From a virus, in IMG/VR virus record IMGVR_UViG_3300042465_001115, positions 1 to 59,549 of that record: DNA of 59,549 bases; one strand, 5' to 3'. This document shows positions 5,760-59,549 of the stretch, one piece after another. Every line of letters starts with the position of its first letter. Positions within the stretch are counted from its first letter, which is position 1. The notes under the pieces are model-generated. The model was not told the origin of the DNA and made no database searches. It saw only the letters and a program-made list of their open reading frames with translations. The position numbers were made by a program, and so were the translations under genes.

Positions 5760-8633
5760 ATGATGGACACGTTGAACTTCCTTCAGCGGGTTCTTCCGTC
5801 ATCGGGTTTCTACGTCACAGCCGTCATCAACACTGGTGAAGGTGCAAGGCATGGATTCTTCTCGACGGTAGAGGACCTCACACGGGCGGTGACCGCTTCC
5901 GACAAACGCGGCAACAACACGTACTACGCCATCTCAGCGTTCGCTGAGAAGGGGCGGCGAACACAGGACAACGCACGGGCAGTCAAGGTACTGGCGCTCG
6001 ATGTGGACTGTGGACCGAACAAGCCATACGCCACGAAGGGGGACGGTGTCGCTGCACTGGCGAAGTTCCTCAAGGACACACGGCTTCCACGGCCGATGAT
6101 CGTGGACTCAGGCAACGGACTGCATGTTTACTGGTGTCTGACTGAGGAAGTGCCGCTCGAGCAGTGGAAGCCCGTGGCACTTGCGCTCAAGGCTGCGTGC
6201 CAGGACAGGGAGTTCCACATCGACCCAGCCGTACCCGGCGACAGTGCCCGCGTACTGCGACCTGTGGGGACGACCAACCCGAAGAGCAGCACACAGGTCA
6301 CGCTACTGGCCGATGCGCCTGACTACGACCTGAGCACCATCACCGCAGCACTGGCACCATTCGCAGCCAGGACGAAGCTGGGTGTTCCCAGCGTTACGCC
6401 GGCGACGGTGCAGCACACATCCACCAGCACGTTGACCAGTGCGTTGCAGGTCAAGCAGGACTTCCCTCCTGCCATCGCAGGCGTGGTATACGCCAAGTGC
6501 CAGCAGATCAACTGGGCGGTGAAGAATCAGGCCGAGGTGCCTGAGCCCCTGTGGTACGACCTGATCGGTGTGGCTGCGCACTGCACGGAGCCTGAGGCTA
6601 CGGCCATCGCATGGAGCGACCAGCACCCGGACTTCAACGCACAGGTCACGCTCCACAAGTTGGAGCACTGGCGCAACTCTGCCACCGGACCAACAACGTG
6701 CAGCAAGTTTGAGGCTGACAGACCGGGCGGCTGCAAGGGATGCAAGTTCAGAGACAAGATCGGCTCACCCGCCCGCCTGGGTGTGCAGTACCAAGAGGTC
6801 AAGCCCAGCACGGATGTGCCCGCATTCGTCTCGACGGATGTGCCCCTGCCGCGCCCGTTCAAGCGCACCGTGGATGGGCTGAAGGCTGTGATCGATGACA
6901 CCGACATCGACGTGTGCAAGTTCGACATCTACCCCGTAGCCTATGGCAAGGACGAGGGTCTGGGCTACGAGACTGTGCGCTACTGCTGGAAGCGACCGCA
7001 CTCAGGGTGGACCGAACTGTCGCTGCGGCAGGCGTACCTCACGGTCCCTCGCATCAAGGACTTCACCACCGAGATAGCTGACCAGGGCATCGTGCTCGCT
7101 GGCGTTCGACAAACGGAGTACTTTCAACTCATGCTGCGCTCGTACATGGATGAACTACGGCAGAAGCGTGCCATGACGAACCTGTACTCCACGATGGGGT
7201 GGAAGGACAACTTCTCTCAGTTCGTCATTGGCGACACGATCCTGCGCCGTACCGAGGACGGTACCGTCACCTCTGAAGATGTCACCCTGTCTGCTGGCAG
7301 CGCCCGCTTGGGCCATGAGTTGTATGGCACCGCAGGGGAACTCAGCGAGTGGATCGACTTCACCCGCCTCATCGACCGCACCGGACTGCACGCGCACTCC
7401 TTCGCCCTGGGTGTAGGTCTGTCGTCTGCGTTGTATGCGTTCACCGGGCTCAAGGGTCTCACCGTGTCGCTGTACGGTCCGACCGGTGGTGGTAAGACGC
7501 TGGCCCAGTACTGGGTGCAGTCGATCTACGGCAACCCGGACAAGCTGCACTTCGCAGCCAAGTTCACGCAGAACTCCCTGTTCAGTCGTATGGGGCTGTA
7601 CTGCCACATGCCCATGACCATCGATGAGGTCACCATGATGGACGACAAGGAGGTGGGAGACTTCGCCTACTGGGTGTCGCAGGGCAGGGACAAGGCGCGG
7701 ATGACCCGCAATGCCGAGGAGCGAGACGCACGTACCTGGGCTATGCCTGTGGTGGTATCCACCAACAAGTCCATGCAGTCCAAGCTCATCGCCTCCGGCC
7801 TCGACACGGACGCACAGATGGCCCGTATCCTGGAGGTCAGCGTACCCCCGCACCCCATGTTCACCAAGGACAGCATGGCAGGGCGGCGGATCTATCAGTT
7901 CCTCATGAGCAACTACGGCCACGTCGGTCGAGCATTCGTCAGCAAGTTGCTGGAACTCGGTCCTGACGGATGCAAGGCCGCCATCGCAGAAGCGACGGCC
8001 ACGTTCAACAAGCGGTACCAGTGCAAGTTCGCAGGCGAGGAGCGGTTCTGGGAGCAAGCCATCATCATGGCCGACCTTGCCTCCACGATGGCGAAGGACT
8101 GGGGCCTGATACAGCACGACCCGCGCCCCGGCGTGGAGTGGACCCTAGCCCAGGTGGGTGCCATCAGGCGCACCGTGCAAGAGAGCAAGCTCGATGCGTT
8201 CGACATGCTGTCGGACTACCTCAACGACTGCGCGGACACAGCCGTCACCGTCATGCACACCGGCACGCAGAAGCCCACCGTGGACTTCAGCCGTATGCCA
8301 CGCAACGACATCCGTGTGCGGTTCGACGTGTACCGCAAGAGTGCTTCCGAGGCGTTCAACTACGGTACGGTCTTCCTCGACCGGGCGCACTTCCGGCGCT
8401 GGCTGTCACAGCGAGGCGCCGACTACAAGACCTTCATCCAGGAACTTACTGAGGAGTCTGCGATTGCCACGCCTTCGTCGAAGAAGGCGTACCTCGGCAA
8501 GGACACCCCGGCTAAGCTCGGTCAGGTCTACGTGATCGGCGTGAACCTGAACCACCCGCGCTTGCAGGGCATCCTTGACGAAGCAGACCAGTCCTACGAG
8601 AACATGGCCTTCGGCCAACTCAAGGCTGTGTGA
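5760..8633 (+). CDS. Primase-helicase fusion (RepB/AEP-like primase plus DUF927-like helicase)
   Basis: This 957-residue protein looks like a complete priming and unwinding machine. The N-terminus has primase-polymerase signatures: LALDVDCG with Asp81 and Asp83, SGNGLHVYW (117-125) with His122, and ARVLRPVGTTNPK. A Cys cluster near residue 320 (CSKF...CKGC) may bind zinc. The C-terminal half carries Walker A GPTGGGKT (573-580) and Walker B-like MTIDE (about 619-623), as in DUF927 phage ATPases. Starts at 5760 and 5763 are both possible. The 3' end overlaps the convergent giant virion gene by 14 bases. With the family A polymerase it supplies the replisome core. Confidence 0.85.
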   Translation: MMDTLNFLQRVLPSSGFYVTAVINTGEGARHGFFSTVEDLTRAVTASDKRGNNTYYAISAFAEKGRRTQDNARAVKVLALDVDCGPNKPYATKGDGVAALAKFLKDTRLPRPMIVDSGNGLHVYWCLTEEVPLEQWKPVALALKAACQDREFHIDPAVPGDSARVLRPVGTTNPKSSTQVTLLADAPDYDLSTITAALAPFAARTKLGVPSVTPATVQHTSTSTLTSALQVKQDFPPAIAGVVYAKCQQINWAVKNQAEVPEPLWYDLIGVAAHCTEPEATAIAWSDQHPDFNAQVTLHKLEHWRNSATGPTTCSKFEADRPGGCKGCKFRDKIGSPARLGVQYQEVKPSTDVPAFVSTDVPLPRPFKRTVDGLKAVIDDTDIDVCKFDIYPVAYGKDEGLGYETVRYCWKRPHSGWTELSLRQAYLTVPRIKDFTTEIADQGIVLAGVRQTEYFQLMLRSYMDELRQKRAMTNLYSTMGWKDNFSQFVIGDTILRRTEDGTVTSEDVTLSAGSARLGHELYGTAGELSEWIDFTRLIDRTGLHAHSFALGVGLSSALYAFTGLKGLTVSLYGPTGGGKTLAQYWVQSIYGNPDKLHFAAKFTQNSLFSRMGLYCHMPMTIDEVTMMDDKEVGDFAYWVSQGRDKARMTRNAEERDARTWAMPVVVSTNKSMQSKLIASGLDTDAQMARILEVSVPPHPMFTKDSMAGRRIYQFLMSNYGHVGRAFVSKLLELGPDGCKAAIAEATATFNKRYQCKFAGEERFWEQAIIMADLASTMAKDWGLIQHDPRPGVEWTLAQVGAIRRTVQESKLDAFDMLSDYLNDCADTAVTVMHTGTQKPTVDFSRMPRNDIRVRFDVYRKSASEAFNYGTVFLDRAHFRRWLSQRGADYKTFIQELTEESAIATPSSKKAYLGKDTPAKLGQVYVIGVNLNHPRLQGILDEADQSYENMAFGQLKAV

Positions 8634-45952: not shown

Positions 45953-46336
45953 GACGGGAGTGTAGGGGGAAGTGCGGGTATTGGGAAGTTACTGCGGTTT
46001 ACAGGATGGGGCTAACTTTACTGGGTGTGCGCCCCAGGCGCTAACTTTACACTCTGGTTTTTCGGGTCTTGGGTTGTGAGGTTGCCTACAACATAGGGGG
46101 GCCTCGCGCCACGCAATCCATGTACCCCCCTCCCCCCGGCCGGTCGGCCGTGCCGCTGGCTGGTCGGAGGCAAAGACCCTGCGGCGCAGTCGGGTATCCC
46201 TGCCCCGGCAACTTGACAATCTTGTCAGCCTGAGCGAATCTGGATTTGTCGACGGCGGACCCCGAAGTCGACAGGCCGGGTGACCCTCACCCAGGTCACT
46301 CGCTCTTTCACAATCTGGGTGCTGGAGGATTCGATC
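45953..46336. promoter_or_regulatory. Divergent control region between virion and early arms
   Basis: No gene fits in these 384 bases. It must drive leftward (terminase) and rightward (46337) transcription. Direct repeats GCTAACTTTAC lie at 46011-46021 and 46040-46050. Inverted repeats are TGACAA/TTGTCA (46214-46219 and 46222-46227), TGTCGAC/GTCGACA (46247-46253 and 46267-46273) and GTGACC/GGTCAC (46280-46285 and 46294-46299). TTGACA at 46213 could be a rightward -35 box, but no good -10 box follows. Operators for a phage or host regulator are likely. Confidence 0.65.
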
Positions 46337-46636
46337 ATGGGATCGAAGACCTTTGAAGGCAACGTGTCCATCGTTCTCAACACCAAGGGTGAGATCGCTC
46401 TCAAGCGTGACCCCGAAGGCGACTGGGACGCAAGCAAGGCGCAAGCCCTGCACGTCAAGATGGGCGAACTGGCGAAGAAGCACAAGGCCAAGATCAGCAG
46501 CTACGCGCTGTTCCAGGCCGAAGGCGGCACCGAGCCGGTTCTCCTGGCCAATCGCTACGGTAACCCGTACGTGGCGCTTCTCCCGAAGCGTGGTGAAGGT
46601 GGCGCGACCCGGAAGGGCGTGACGAAGCTGGCGTAA
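46337..46636 (+). CDS. Early gene A, paralogue of the gene at 47610
   Basis: This 99-residue protein is the first gene of the rightward arm. GGAGG lies 8 bases before the ATG; a longer frame runs into the control region. It shares with the 47610 product, in the same order, the F/Y-G-VS-NTKGE block, the K-P-EG block, PVLL, R-GPY-ALL and a final VTKLA. Predicted secondary structure is a small beta-rich N-terminus and one helix. The duplicate pair flanks the repeat-rich non-coding segment. Function is unknown; early expression suggests host control or anti-defence. Confidence 0.7.
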   Translation: MGSKTFEGNVSIVLNTKGEIALKRDPEGDWDASKAQALHVKMGELAKKHKAKISSYALFQAEGGTEPVLLANRYGNPYVALLPKRGEGGATRKGVTKLA

Positions 46637-46651
46637 GCCAGCAGCTAGGAA

Positions 46652-46676
46652 CCCGGTGGCCGGTAAAGCCACCGGG
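46652..46676 (+). terminator. Hairpin after early gene A
   Basis: CCCGGTGGC and GCCACCGGG form a perfect 9-bp stem with loop CGGTAAA, 16 bases after the stop of gene A. No T-run follows, so it may be an attenuator or an RNA-protecting structure between the two early genes. Confidence 0.6.
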
Positions 46677-46700
46677 CCTGCTTCTTCAACGGAGTGAACC

Positions 46701-46883
46701 ATGAAGCCAATCGAACTGAGGCTGACCCGCTGGGCGGGCAAGACCACGGTCTACACCGTGGACCGTGTCTACCCTGGAGTCGGCAACGTAGTGAAGGGAC
46801 TGCGGACCTTCCCGTCCGCAGTCGAGGCGCGCCAGTGGGCGCGTACCCATCACCCCGGAGTGCCACTGCTCCGGAATGTGTGA
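46701..46883 (+). CDS. Early gene B, small basic protein
   Basis: This 60-residue protein has CGGAGT 9 bases upstream of the ATG, like the gene at 47926. It is basic with several aromatic residues, and the central GVGN recalls GVGN in the 62-residue protein at 47926. The end GVPLLRNV parallels GIPATILMK there. The two may be paralogues in step with the paralogous pair before them, but similarity is weak. A terminator follows 5 bases downstream. Confidence 0.55.
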   Translation: MKPIELRLTRWAGKTTVYTVDRVYPGVGNVVKGLRTFPSAVEARQWARTHHPGVPLLRNV

Positions 46884-46887
46884 ACCG

Positions 46888-46923
46888 AGCCCGCCACCGC
46901 AAGGTGAGCGGGCTTTTCTTTTG
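46888..46923 (+). terminator. Rho-independent terminator ending the first early operon
   Basis: On the plus strand GCCCGCCACC and GGTGAGCGGGC pair as a 10-bp stem with one bulged A and a GCAA tetraloop, followed by TTTTCTTTT. The first early transcript should end here, and genes from 47610 onward need a new promoter. Confidence 0.85.
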
Positions 46924-47044
46924 TCCTCTCGCACCACGTCGCCCGCCTCAGGAGGGTCACTGCTTCTCGAAGAGAAGAAACTATACGTCGGGGGGTCACG
47001 GCACGCTTTACACCGCACCTCACGGCTGCTGTACAGTAGCAAGC

Positions 47045-47066
47045 GTCAAGTTATGGGTCAGAGCGT
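47045..47066. repeat. 22-nt direct repeat, copy 1
   Basis: This copy matches 47153-47174 at 19 of 22 positions and carries the GTCAAGTTATGGG core and an AGCGT end. Part of the iteron-like set in the putative origin. Confidence 0.8.
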
Positions 47067-47095
47067 GTCAACTTGTAAACAATCTATCTGAGAAC

Positions 47096-47123
47096 CTTAC
47101 AACTGTACAAACGGGCGTATAGT
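47096..47123 (+). promoter_or_regulatory. Possible rightward promoter in the repeat region
   Basis: CTTACA (47096-47101) and TATAGT (47118-47123) are spaced by 16 bases, and the palindrome at 47134-47160 lies just downstream, where an operator would block it. It would serve genes from 47610. The -35 box is only a moderate match. Confidence 0.35.
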
Positions 47124-47133
47124 TTAGATGGAT

Positions 47134-47160
47134 AACTTGACACTTTACATCTGTCAAGTT
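47134..47160. promoter_or_regulatory. Perfect inverted repeat, operator-like
   Basis: AACTTGACA and TGTCAAGTT form 9-bp arms with a 9-base spacer. The half-site recurs throughout the region and near 46213, indicating a dimeric protein with many sites. Confidence 0.7.
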
Positions 47161-47174
47161 ATGGGGAAAAGCGT
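47153..47174. repeat. 22-nt direct repeat, copy 2
   Basis: Partner of 47045-47066; three substitutions. Its first bases form the right arm of the palindrome at 47134-47160. Confidence 0.8.
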
Positions 47175-47481
47175 TATAAATCAAGGACTTAGCCGAGGTG
47201 AGCCACGGGGGAGTGGCCGGTATATAATCTATATAAGATAGAAAAGTAATGATTTTTATATACCCTTTTCAGTGGCGCGCACTTCCCACTTGACATTTCA
47301 TAATGCGGAACGCTCTCCCCCTCATCTCAAAATCTCAACATTACACTCAAAAATCTACCTTTTTTGGATCATTTCCGAAAAAGCCTTATGAATCAACCAC
47401 TTGCACGATCTACGTAAGGTTTCCCCACCTACCTTTTTCGGATCATTGCTCGCTTTACATAGATTGTTTACATGGACTTTG

Positions 47482-47539
47482 TCCAGGCAAAGCCTTAAAC
47501 TTGACGCTTATCCAGGGAAAGCGGCCCGCACTTGACGCT
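47482..47539. repeat. Two tandem units with ACTTGACGCT
   Basis: Units at 47482-47509 and 47511-47539 both begin TCCAGG-AAAGC and end ACTTGACGCT. Regular spacing of nearly three helical turns suggests that two protein molecules bind side by side. Confidence 0.75.
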
Positions 47540-47609
47540 CGGTCCGGCCCCGGCGAGACTGGCTCTGGCCCCCGGGCCGCTTTACAAACCCCTTTCAATG
47601 GAGCCAATC

Positions 47610-47894
47610 ATGGCGATGATGTACAAAGGTCAAGTCTCTGTTTACAGCAACACCAAGGGAGAACTCACTGTCAAGCCCGATGTGGAAGGCAAGTACAGTT
47701 TCTCCAACGTGGATGACCTTTACAAGGTCATGCAGAAGCTGAGCAAGGAGCACAAGATGCCAATCAAGGCGTTCAAGCCGGAAGCCGGTGGCAACTCTCC
47801 TGTCCTCCTCACCGACCGTTTCGGCAAGCCCTACCTCGCCCTGCTGTCGGCTTCCAAGGCCCCCTCCAAGCCGACCGTGACGAAGCTCGCCTAA
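47610..47894 (+). CDS. Early gene A', paralogue of the gene at 46337
   Basis: This 94-residue protein starts at the ATG at 47610, with GGAG 6 bases upstream; in-frame upstream starts lie in the repeat region. It aligns along its length with the 46337 product: the Y-G-VSV-NTKGE block, the helical middle with K-SKEHK, AGG-PVLL, R-FGKPY-ALL and final VTKLA. Both are basic at the end and lack cysteines. The duplicate is older, as the DNA sequences have diverged. Function unknown; probably a small early regulator or inhibitor. Confidence 0.7.
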   Translation: MAMMYKGQVSVYSNTKGELTVKPDVEGKYSFSNVDDLYKVMQKLSKEHKMPIKAFKPEAGGNSPVLLTDRFGKPYLALLSASKAPSKPTVTKLA

Positions 47895-47925
47895 CCTCCC
47901 TCAACCCTGGTTCATCGGAGTACCC

Positions 47926-48114
47926 ATGAAGATCACCACCCTGCCTTACAAGGCACCCCGTAAGCACCGGAGGCAGGAAGCCTTGCGCTTCTGTGTCAAG
48001 TACGGTGTCGGCAACACCATCTCCTACCGTTGGTATCGCCGTGACTCGGCGGCTGTCAACTTCCTCAACTCCCTGGCCGACCAGGGTATCCCCGCAACCA
48101 TCCTGATGAAGTGA
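47926..48114 (+). CDS. Early gene B', small basic protein
   Basis: This 62-residue protein has CGGAGT 7 bases upstream. It is highly basic (KAPRKHRRQEAL, then SYRWYRRDS) and ends in QGIPATILMK. It follows gene A' as B follows A, with similar spacing and leader. It may bind nucleic acid because of its charge. A 24-nt repeat overlaps its end and the start of the next gene. Confidence 0.55.
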   Translation: MKITTLPYKAPRKHRRQEALRFCVKYGVGNTISYRWYRRDSAAVNFLNSLADQGIPATILMK

Positions 48115-59247: not shown

Positions 59248-59549
59248 CCAACCCGAAGCCCTGCGGCTGGCTGATGCGCTTGAAGCGTACTGGGGCGCAG
59301 ACCTCGGCCACGACCGCGAACGACAAGCCGCCGCCGAACTGCGCCGTTTGCACGCGGAGAACGAGCGCCTGCACCAGATCAACCAGTCGCACGAGATGAA
59401 GCTGTCCGTGCGTGGGTATGAGATACAGATCGAAGACCTGAGGTTGGCGCACGCTGAACTGCACGCCCTGAACGGGAAACTGCTGGAGGCGTTGGTCAGC
59501 TTCACAAAGTCCGACAACCTCAGGTCTTCGATCTGTATCTCATACCCAC
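59240..59549 (+). CDS. Small coiled-coil accessory protein, N-terminal part (gene spans the contig junction)
   Basis: The ATG at 59240 overlaps the previous stop (ATGACTGA). The frame runs MTDQPEALRLADALEAYWGA into the terminal repeat at 59390, and continues at base 1 of the contig to the stop at 204, giving 117 residues. The codons after 59515 (NLRSSICISYP) come from the fold-back and are not part of the true protein. Confidence 0.7.
   Translation, partial: MTDQPEALRLADALEAYWGADLGHDRERQAAAELRRLHAENERLHQINQSHEMKLSVRGYEIQIEDLRLAHAELHALNGKLLEALVSFTKSDNLRSSICISYP
59390..59515. repeat. Right copy of 126-bp terminal direct repeat
   Basis: Identical to 1-126. It joins the two halves of the junction gene in frame, which supports circular continuity. 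Confidence 0.95.
59515..59549. repeat. 35-nt fold-back of the terminal sequence
   Basis: The last 35 bases are the reverse complement of 23-57 and therefore of 59412-59446. They would pair as a 35-bp stem with a 68-base loop. They break the junction gene, so they are probably an artefact of sequencing, amplification or assembly. Confidence 0.9.

Follow-up and report, generated by a model that had tools for sequence, protein, structure and literature searches.

The window, a virus record of 59,549 bases whose first 100 bases reappear at 59,389, close to its end, has a structural arm and an early arm that diverge between 46.1 and 48.1 kb. The minus strand, running leftward from this point, encodes the portal protein, TerL and tail proteins, and the plus-strand early arm, running rightward, encodes a DNA polymerase, an exonuclease, a DNA helicase, a primase/helicase at 5760..8633, a MoxR-type ATPase and a VWA-metallopeptidase. 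At the divergence point, two gene pairs on the plus strand bracket a non-coding region of 726 bp (46884..47609). The left pair consists of A1 (46337..46636), encoding a 99-residue protein with relatives in dozens of loci, and B1 (46701..46883). The right pair consists of A2 (47610..47894), encoding a 94-residue protein, and B2 (47926..48114). Both A proteins have a pI of 9.7 and end in VTKLA. A terminator-like hairpin follows A1 (46652..46676, plus strand) and has equivalents after A1 in relatives, the number of hairpins being no higher than the shuffle mean. The left unit ends at a GC-rich hairpin with a T-rich tail (46889..46913, plus strand), identified from sequence and likewise with equivalents in relatives.

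The intervening region is a candidate control region by composition, repeats and conservation. Its GC content is 49%, compared with 61% for the genome, and the lowest-GC stretches of 200, 500 and 700 bp in the genome all lie within it. The words ACTTGAC (6 observed versus 0.07 expected) and CTTTACA (4 versus 0.13) are strongly enriched, with p about 5e-4 for each, the floor set by 2000 resamplings, and CTTKACA and AATCTA words recur along the region. The repeat-rich spacer of about 0.7 kb described in the initial annotation is thus borne out. A perfect dyad, ATAACTTGACA-9-TGTCAAGTTAT, lies at 47132..47162, and dyads of the same word recur here in relatives. Every one of the five copies of AACTTGAC in the genome falls within the two non-coding control stretches; dispersed stoperator-like operators were rejected on this confinement. 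The region also carries a single-copy element, CTATACGTCGGGGGGTCACGGCACGC (46981..47006, plus strand), which is near-universal among relatives. A second single-copy element, TCCATGTACCCCCC (46117..46130, plus strand), lies between a small-terminase-like gene and the left early promoter, and points the opposite way to the main element's G6. The form CCATGTACCCCC occurs in 35 of the 86 loci whose flank is long enough and invariably lies 684–1127 bp to the left of the main element, and it is suspected to be a packaging or regulatory site. Searches of Rfam yielded sub-threshold chance matches only, and a tRNA search found none.

A scan for the main element in the form CYATACGTCGGGGGKYYRYDGC matched 116 IMG/VR stretches and one contig from a metagenome-assembled genome (MAG). 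The latter (L213), 7.4 kb long and from the MAG of an uncultured actinobacterium, is the sole match to the element in bacterial genomes and may be a misbinned phage. The context sample comprised about 100 related IMG/VR loci; the scan matches combined with the loci from the other scans gave 94 loci after partial removal of near-copies, and leader and B families were assigned across the loci by per-family HMMs. The phage group is large in IMG/VR, at least 590 stretches among the matches listed encoding a TerL relative, and its nearest cultured-phage terminases are less than 50% identical, the best being 46% for Pseudomonas phage Rollin. An INPHARED DNA search gave zero matches, as did tblastn of the A, C and D leader protein families against the INPHARED cultured phages at the limits used; the A gene is absent from the cultured neighbours Rollin and RHph_TM3_14A, and literature searches returned nothing on this phage group.

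Across these relatives, the near-universal constituents of the control region are the single-copy element CYATACGYCGGGGG, the words ACTTKACA and ANNATCTA, and the promoter TTGACN-17-GAGNCT. Alignment of 40 spacers gives ordered blocks: the element, ACTTKACA words and dyads, AATCTA-type words, an AT-rich block, and TTGACG-17-GAGNCT before A2. The AATCTA-type words vary by lineage, being CTATCTA in some. The repeated spacer word itself differs among lineages (ACAATCTA, ACTATCTA, ACGATCTA and TATCTCA), as if the binding protein had changed its specificity. In about a quarter of the loci, but not in the window, a predicted membrane miniprotein of 28 residues (MSDDAKAIIGAIIFAPIFYFLLVVVMSF and similar) is conserved in the left unit just before the element, as in L057, L025 and L052.

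A predicted early promoter precedes each A gene on the plus strand: TTGACA-17-GAATCT (46213..46241) upstream of A1, and TTGACG-17-GAGACT (47532..47560), identified by pattern match and spacer alignment, upstream of A2. Of the four occurrences of a loose promoter pattern in the window, two are the A1 and A2 promoters. In relatives, the promoter pattern is present at the left slot of 45 of 78 loci and at the right slot of 40 of 54, as against 1 of 286 control windows. It is well supported that A1 and A2 lead two early units and that each of them is preceded by a separate copy of a predicted TTGACN-17-GAGNCT promoter. The −35 hexamer of the left promoter overlaps a TTGACA/TGTCA dyad, and a TTGAC/YGTMR dyad is found on 26 of 40 distinct left promoters, compared with 7% in shuffles for its half-site, and on none of 25 right promoters. 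Because the dyad is restricted to left promoters, the protein that reads the spacer words may regulate the left unit, and hence A1, as well.

A1 and A2 are paralogues, as proposed in the initial annotation: BLASTP aligns them over 95 columns with 42% identity (E 3e-22), and the blocks named there (NTKGE, PVLL, R-G-PY-ALL and VTKLA) are present in order in both. A protein scan identified 20 A loci, and further copies were found in TerL loci by HMM; the pI is 9.3–9.9 in all 73 A proteins examined. In one locus (L026:887-1220), A1 lies in two overlapping frames, representing a frameshifted or misassembled copy. Two AlphaFold models concur in a beta-hairpin/helix/beta-hairpin arrangement with a pLDDT of 78–79, A2 having the same predicted fold as A1. 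Searches of the PDB with both models (Foldseek and VIA-align), of BFVD with the first model and of the PDB by sequence gave no match, and Pfam and PHROG searches with A, B, C, D and R gave nothing reliable, in agreement with the earlier statement that no family could be recognised for A. The model of A is beta-beta-alpha-beta-beta, not the beta-alpha-alpha core of ribbon-helix-helix (RHH) proteins, and the A and RHH-like (R) profiles score 0.5% against each other. A has neither a match to the Bac_DNA_binding profile nor a PDB match to the HU fold. Its tail is basic and ends in KLA, unlike the acidic C-terminal tip of single-stranded DNA-binding proteins (SSB), and no match to the SSB fold was found; one of 44 A members matches an SSB PHROG weakly (E 0.049).

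The two small genes that follow A1 and A2 are basic, as had been noted, B1 being 60 residues long with a pI of 11.3 and B2 62 residues with a pI of 10.5. Nevertheless, the earlier description of a duplicated two-gene cassette does not hold, since B1 and B2 are not paralogues (profile–profile comparison, 0.1%) and have separate relatives; only the A gene is duplicated. The CGGAGT leader taken as a mark of the cassette is an ordinary ribosome-binding (Shine-Dalgarno) site, because a similar GGAG leader precedes other genes here. B1 has protein-level relatives in 7 distinct sequences elsewhere and its slot is filled variably among relatives, and B2, with 30 such sequences, is single-copy in each genome and lies to the right of the element in 26 loci, to the left in 5 and on both sides in none.

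The two leader slots can be filled by three mutually unrelated families, A, C and D. The A...A layout is found in 42 loci, with 890–1176 bp from the A1 stop to the A2 start in most unique loci. The other left...right combinations are C...none (12 loci), A...none, D...D and none...none (6 each), C...C and D...A (3 each), C...R and A...R (2 each) and none...A (1). Inspection was used to assign the left C of L067, the A of L060 and, within the CGCC group, the five D...D loci. The earlier view of paired early proteins beside a control region is upheld, and the layout is conserved in dozens of relatives. When both slots are occupied by A, C or D, the families agree in 51 of 54 loci, compared with a mean of 36 and a maximum of 45 in 5000 shuffles, which ignore kinship although many of the A...A loci are closely related to each other. 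L023, the window's nearest relative, breaks this rule, with D on the left and A on the right. Pairing is thus not absolute, and what the initial annotation named as refuting its view, the absence of one pair from related phages without any trace, is seen in part: six loci are A...none, indicating that A1 can do without A2, and L023 is D...A.

In three close sister pairs (L145/L109, L058/L045 and L067/L005), the leaders differ at both slots, yet the spacers are 75–82% identical, so leader pair and spacer did not travel together as a single block. The right-hand A gave way to an RHH-like gene or was lost in L145 and L058, and in L067 both slots have turned to C. The swap of one leader usually comes with the swap or loss of the other, which suggests that the two act together. 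In the main group, A1 and A2 each form their own clade, and these separate orthologous clades indicate that the pair has been retained long after the duplication. In L022 and in the L054 lineage, on the other hand, the A copies cluster by genome, indicating separate duplications or gene conversion. The A1 and A2 distances correlate with r = 0.94 (partial r = 0.95 given TerL, compared with 0.16 for A1–TerS and 0.38 for A1–MoxR), mostly because the divergent L054-type lineage has changed both proteins; within the main group, the A1–A2 partial r is 0.67, no better than the 0.64 for A1–TerS.

The main rival explanation treats the slots simply as places of high early expression in which interchangeable genes for host takeover or anti-defence accumulate. 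The second copy would arise by recombination between similar promoter flanks, and the family match would then reflect copying rather than joint function. Leader and B genes are indeed often swapped, the left label A requiring 15 changes on the TerL tree, at least 10 of them forced, and both the clustering of A copies by genome in L022 and in the L054 lineage and the occurrence of B2 on either side of the element are consistent with such exchange. However, the long retention of separate A1 and A2 clades in the main group and the loss or swap of A1 along with A2 in close sister pairs argue against it. This explanation is somewhat unlikely. In the T7 0.3–0.7 genes and the SPO1 host-takeover module, small exchangeable ORFans come first in strong early units. 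The leaders here are likewise small exchangeable ORFans, but they differ from those takeover regions in occupying two slots, one on each side of a single control region, that mostly carry members of one family.

The element and its words are not confined to genomes with A. The same words and element occur where the leaders are C, D, RHH-like or unassigned. They extend to genomes without A: L092, L097 and L100 carry the CGCC variant CCATACGCCGGGG, the words themselves recur in L091, and most of the checked genomes without A combine the CGCC element variant with D leaders. This tells against the initial proposal that the pair binds DNA and acts on this very region, and it makes A-specific recognition of those words unlikely, although A could bind the region non-specifically. 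In a related proposal, A1 and A2 would recognise the ACTTKACA or ANNATCTA words sequence-specifically and regulate the promoters on either side. This proposal would agree with the position of basic proteins next to repeated dyads, with the overlap of a dyad and the left promoter, and with the presence of a gene resembling RHH repressors (Arc/CopG type) in the right slot of four genomes (L010, L116, L145 and L165). It is improbable, because the words persist next to C, D or other non-A leaders and the searches gave no known DNA-binding fold for A, which differs from Arc/CopG repressors in secondary structure and has no RHH signature.

Iteron-type origins of plasmids and phages are AT-rich non-coding stretches that lie beside early and replication genes and contain short words repeated in either orientation. 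The spacer resembles them in its AT-rich DNA with clustered repeated words in both orientations, and DnaA-like boxes are enriched in the control regions of relatives (0.34 per kb, compared with 0.05 elsewhere, AT content not being factored in). The window contains no consensus DnaA box, and the GC skew is weak in the region. Unlike iteron-type origins, the spacer has no recognised initiator gene adjacent to it, contains two unrelated word families and carries the extra single-copy element containing G6; its origin activity is putative. Genomes with and without A alike encode the primase/helicase, the DNA polymerase and the small-terminase-like protein, and so their distribution does not discriminate between an origin and a packaging site. 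A role of the element and spacer mainly as a packaging (pac/cos) start beside the terminase genes rather than as an origin, merely flanked by the leaders, has little probability. In its favour, the element is single-copy and about 1 kb from the small-terminase-like gene, and the second conserved C6 element is nearer still to that gene; against it, the region also contains AT-rich DNA, iteron-like words and promoters, and most contigs continue through the element, with no ends there.

It is well supported that a conserved control region is framed by two promoter-leader units, whose leaders are usually paralogous. The explanation tentatively preferred is that A is a jointly acting, small, basic, nucleic-acid-binding early protein whose genes lie beside an origin/control region that a different protein would read. 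In such a scheme, a conserved origin/control region would be flanked by two early transcription units, each with its leader gene first, and the repeats would most likely serve as origin and operator sites for a different conserved protein, such as the phage primase/helicase or a host factor. A1 and A2, ancient paralogues, would act as a matched pair, either as a heteromer or as two proteins on one target, and would assist replication or host takeover as early accessory proteins that bind nucleic acid. The bacterial DNA-architectural proteins HU and IHF are heterodimeric, and A1 and A2 resemble them as two small basic paralogues of about 95 residues that may act together; they differ in lacking a sequence match to HU/IHF and in their predicted beta-beta-alpha-beta-beta order, which is not that of the HU fold. 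No match to a family, the PDB or BFVD speaks for nucleic-acid binding by A. Nucleic-acid binding, heteromer formation, docking, origin activity and operator use are all inferred.

A possible further link between the leader families lies in their C-termini. Most A proteins end in KLA and a few in KLF, and almost every D protein seen has KLF or KLFS at its end, while the cores of A and D show no similarity (profile–profile comparison, 0.2%); C proteins often finish in an aromatic residue or leucine behind a basic linker. From the one motif that A and D share, their tails may be docking peptides, and the flexible VTKLA tail of A would then dock to a partner also used by the unrelated D family. 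A stronger version, in which the control module consists of an origin region and two leaders necessarily of the same family, with at least three unrelated families in the matched-pair role and a common C-terminal docking peptide, is doubtful. If the matched-pair rule is functional, three unrelated families solve the same early task with a defined control region, and origin, promoters and leader function could be tested together.

In two relatives, the match to DNA polymerase falls into separate parts within an uninterrupted open frame (L023, 12131-14848, 909 residues; L165, 42235-45420, 1076 residues), a pattern expected of an in-frame intein or a similar insert.
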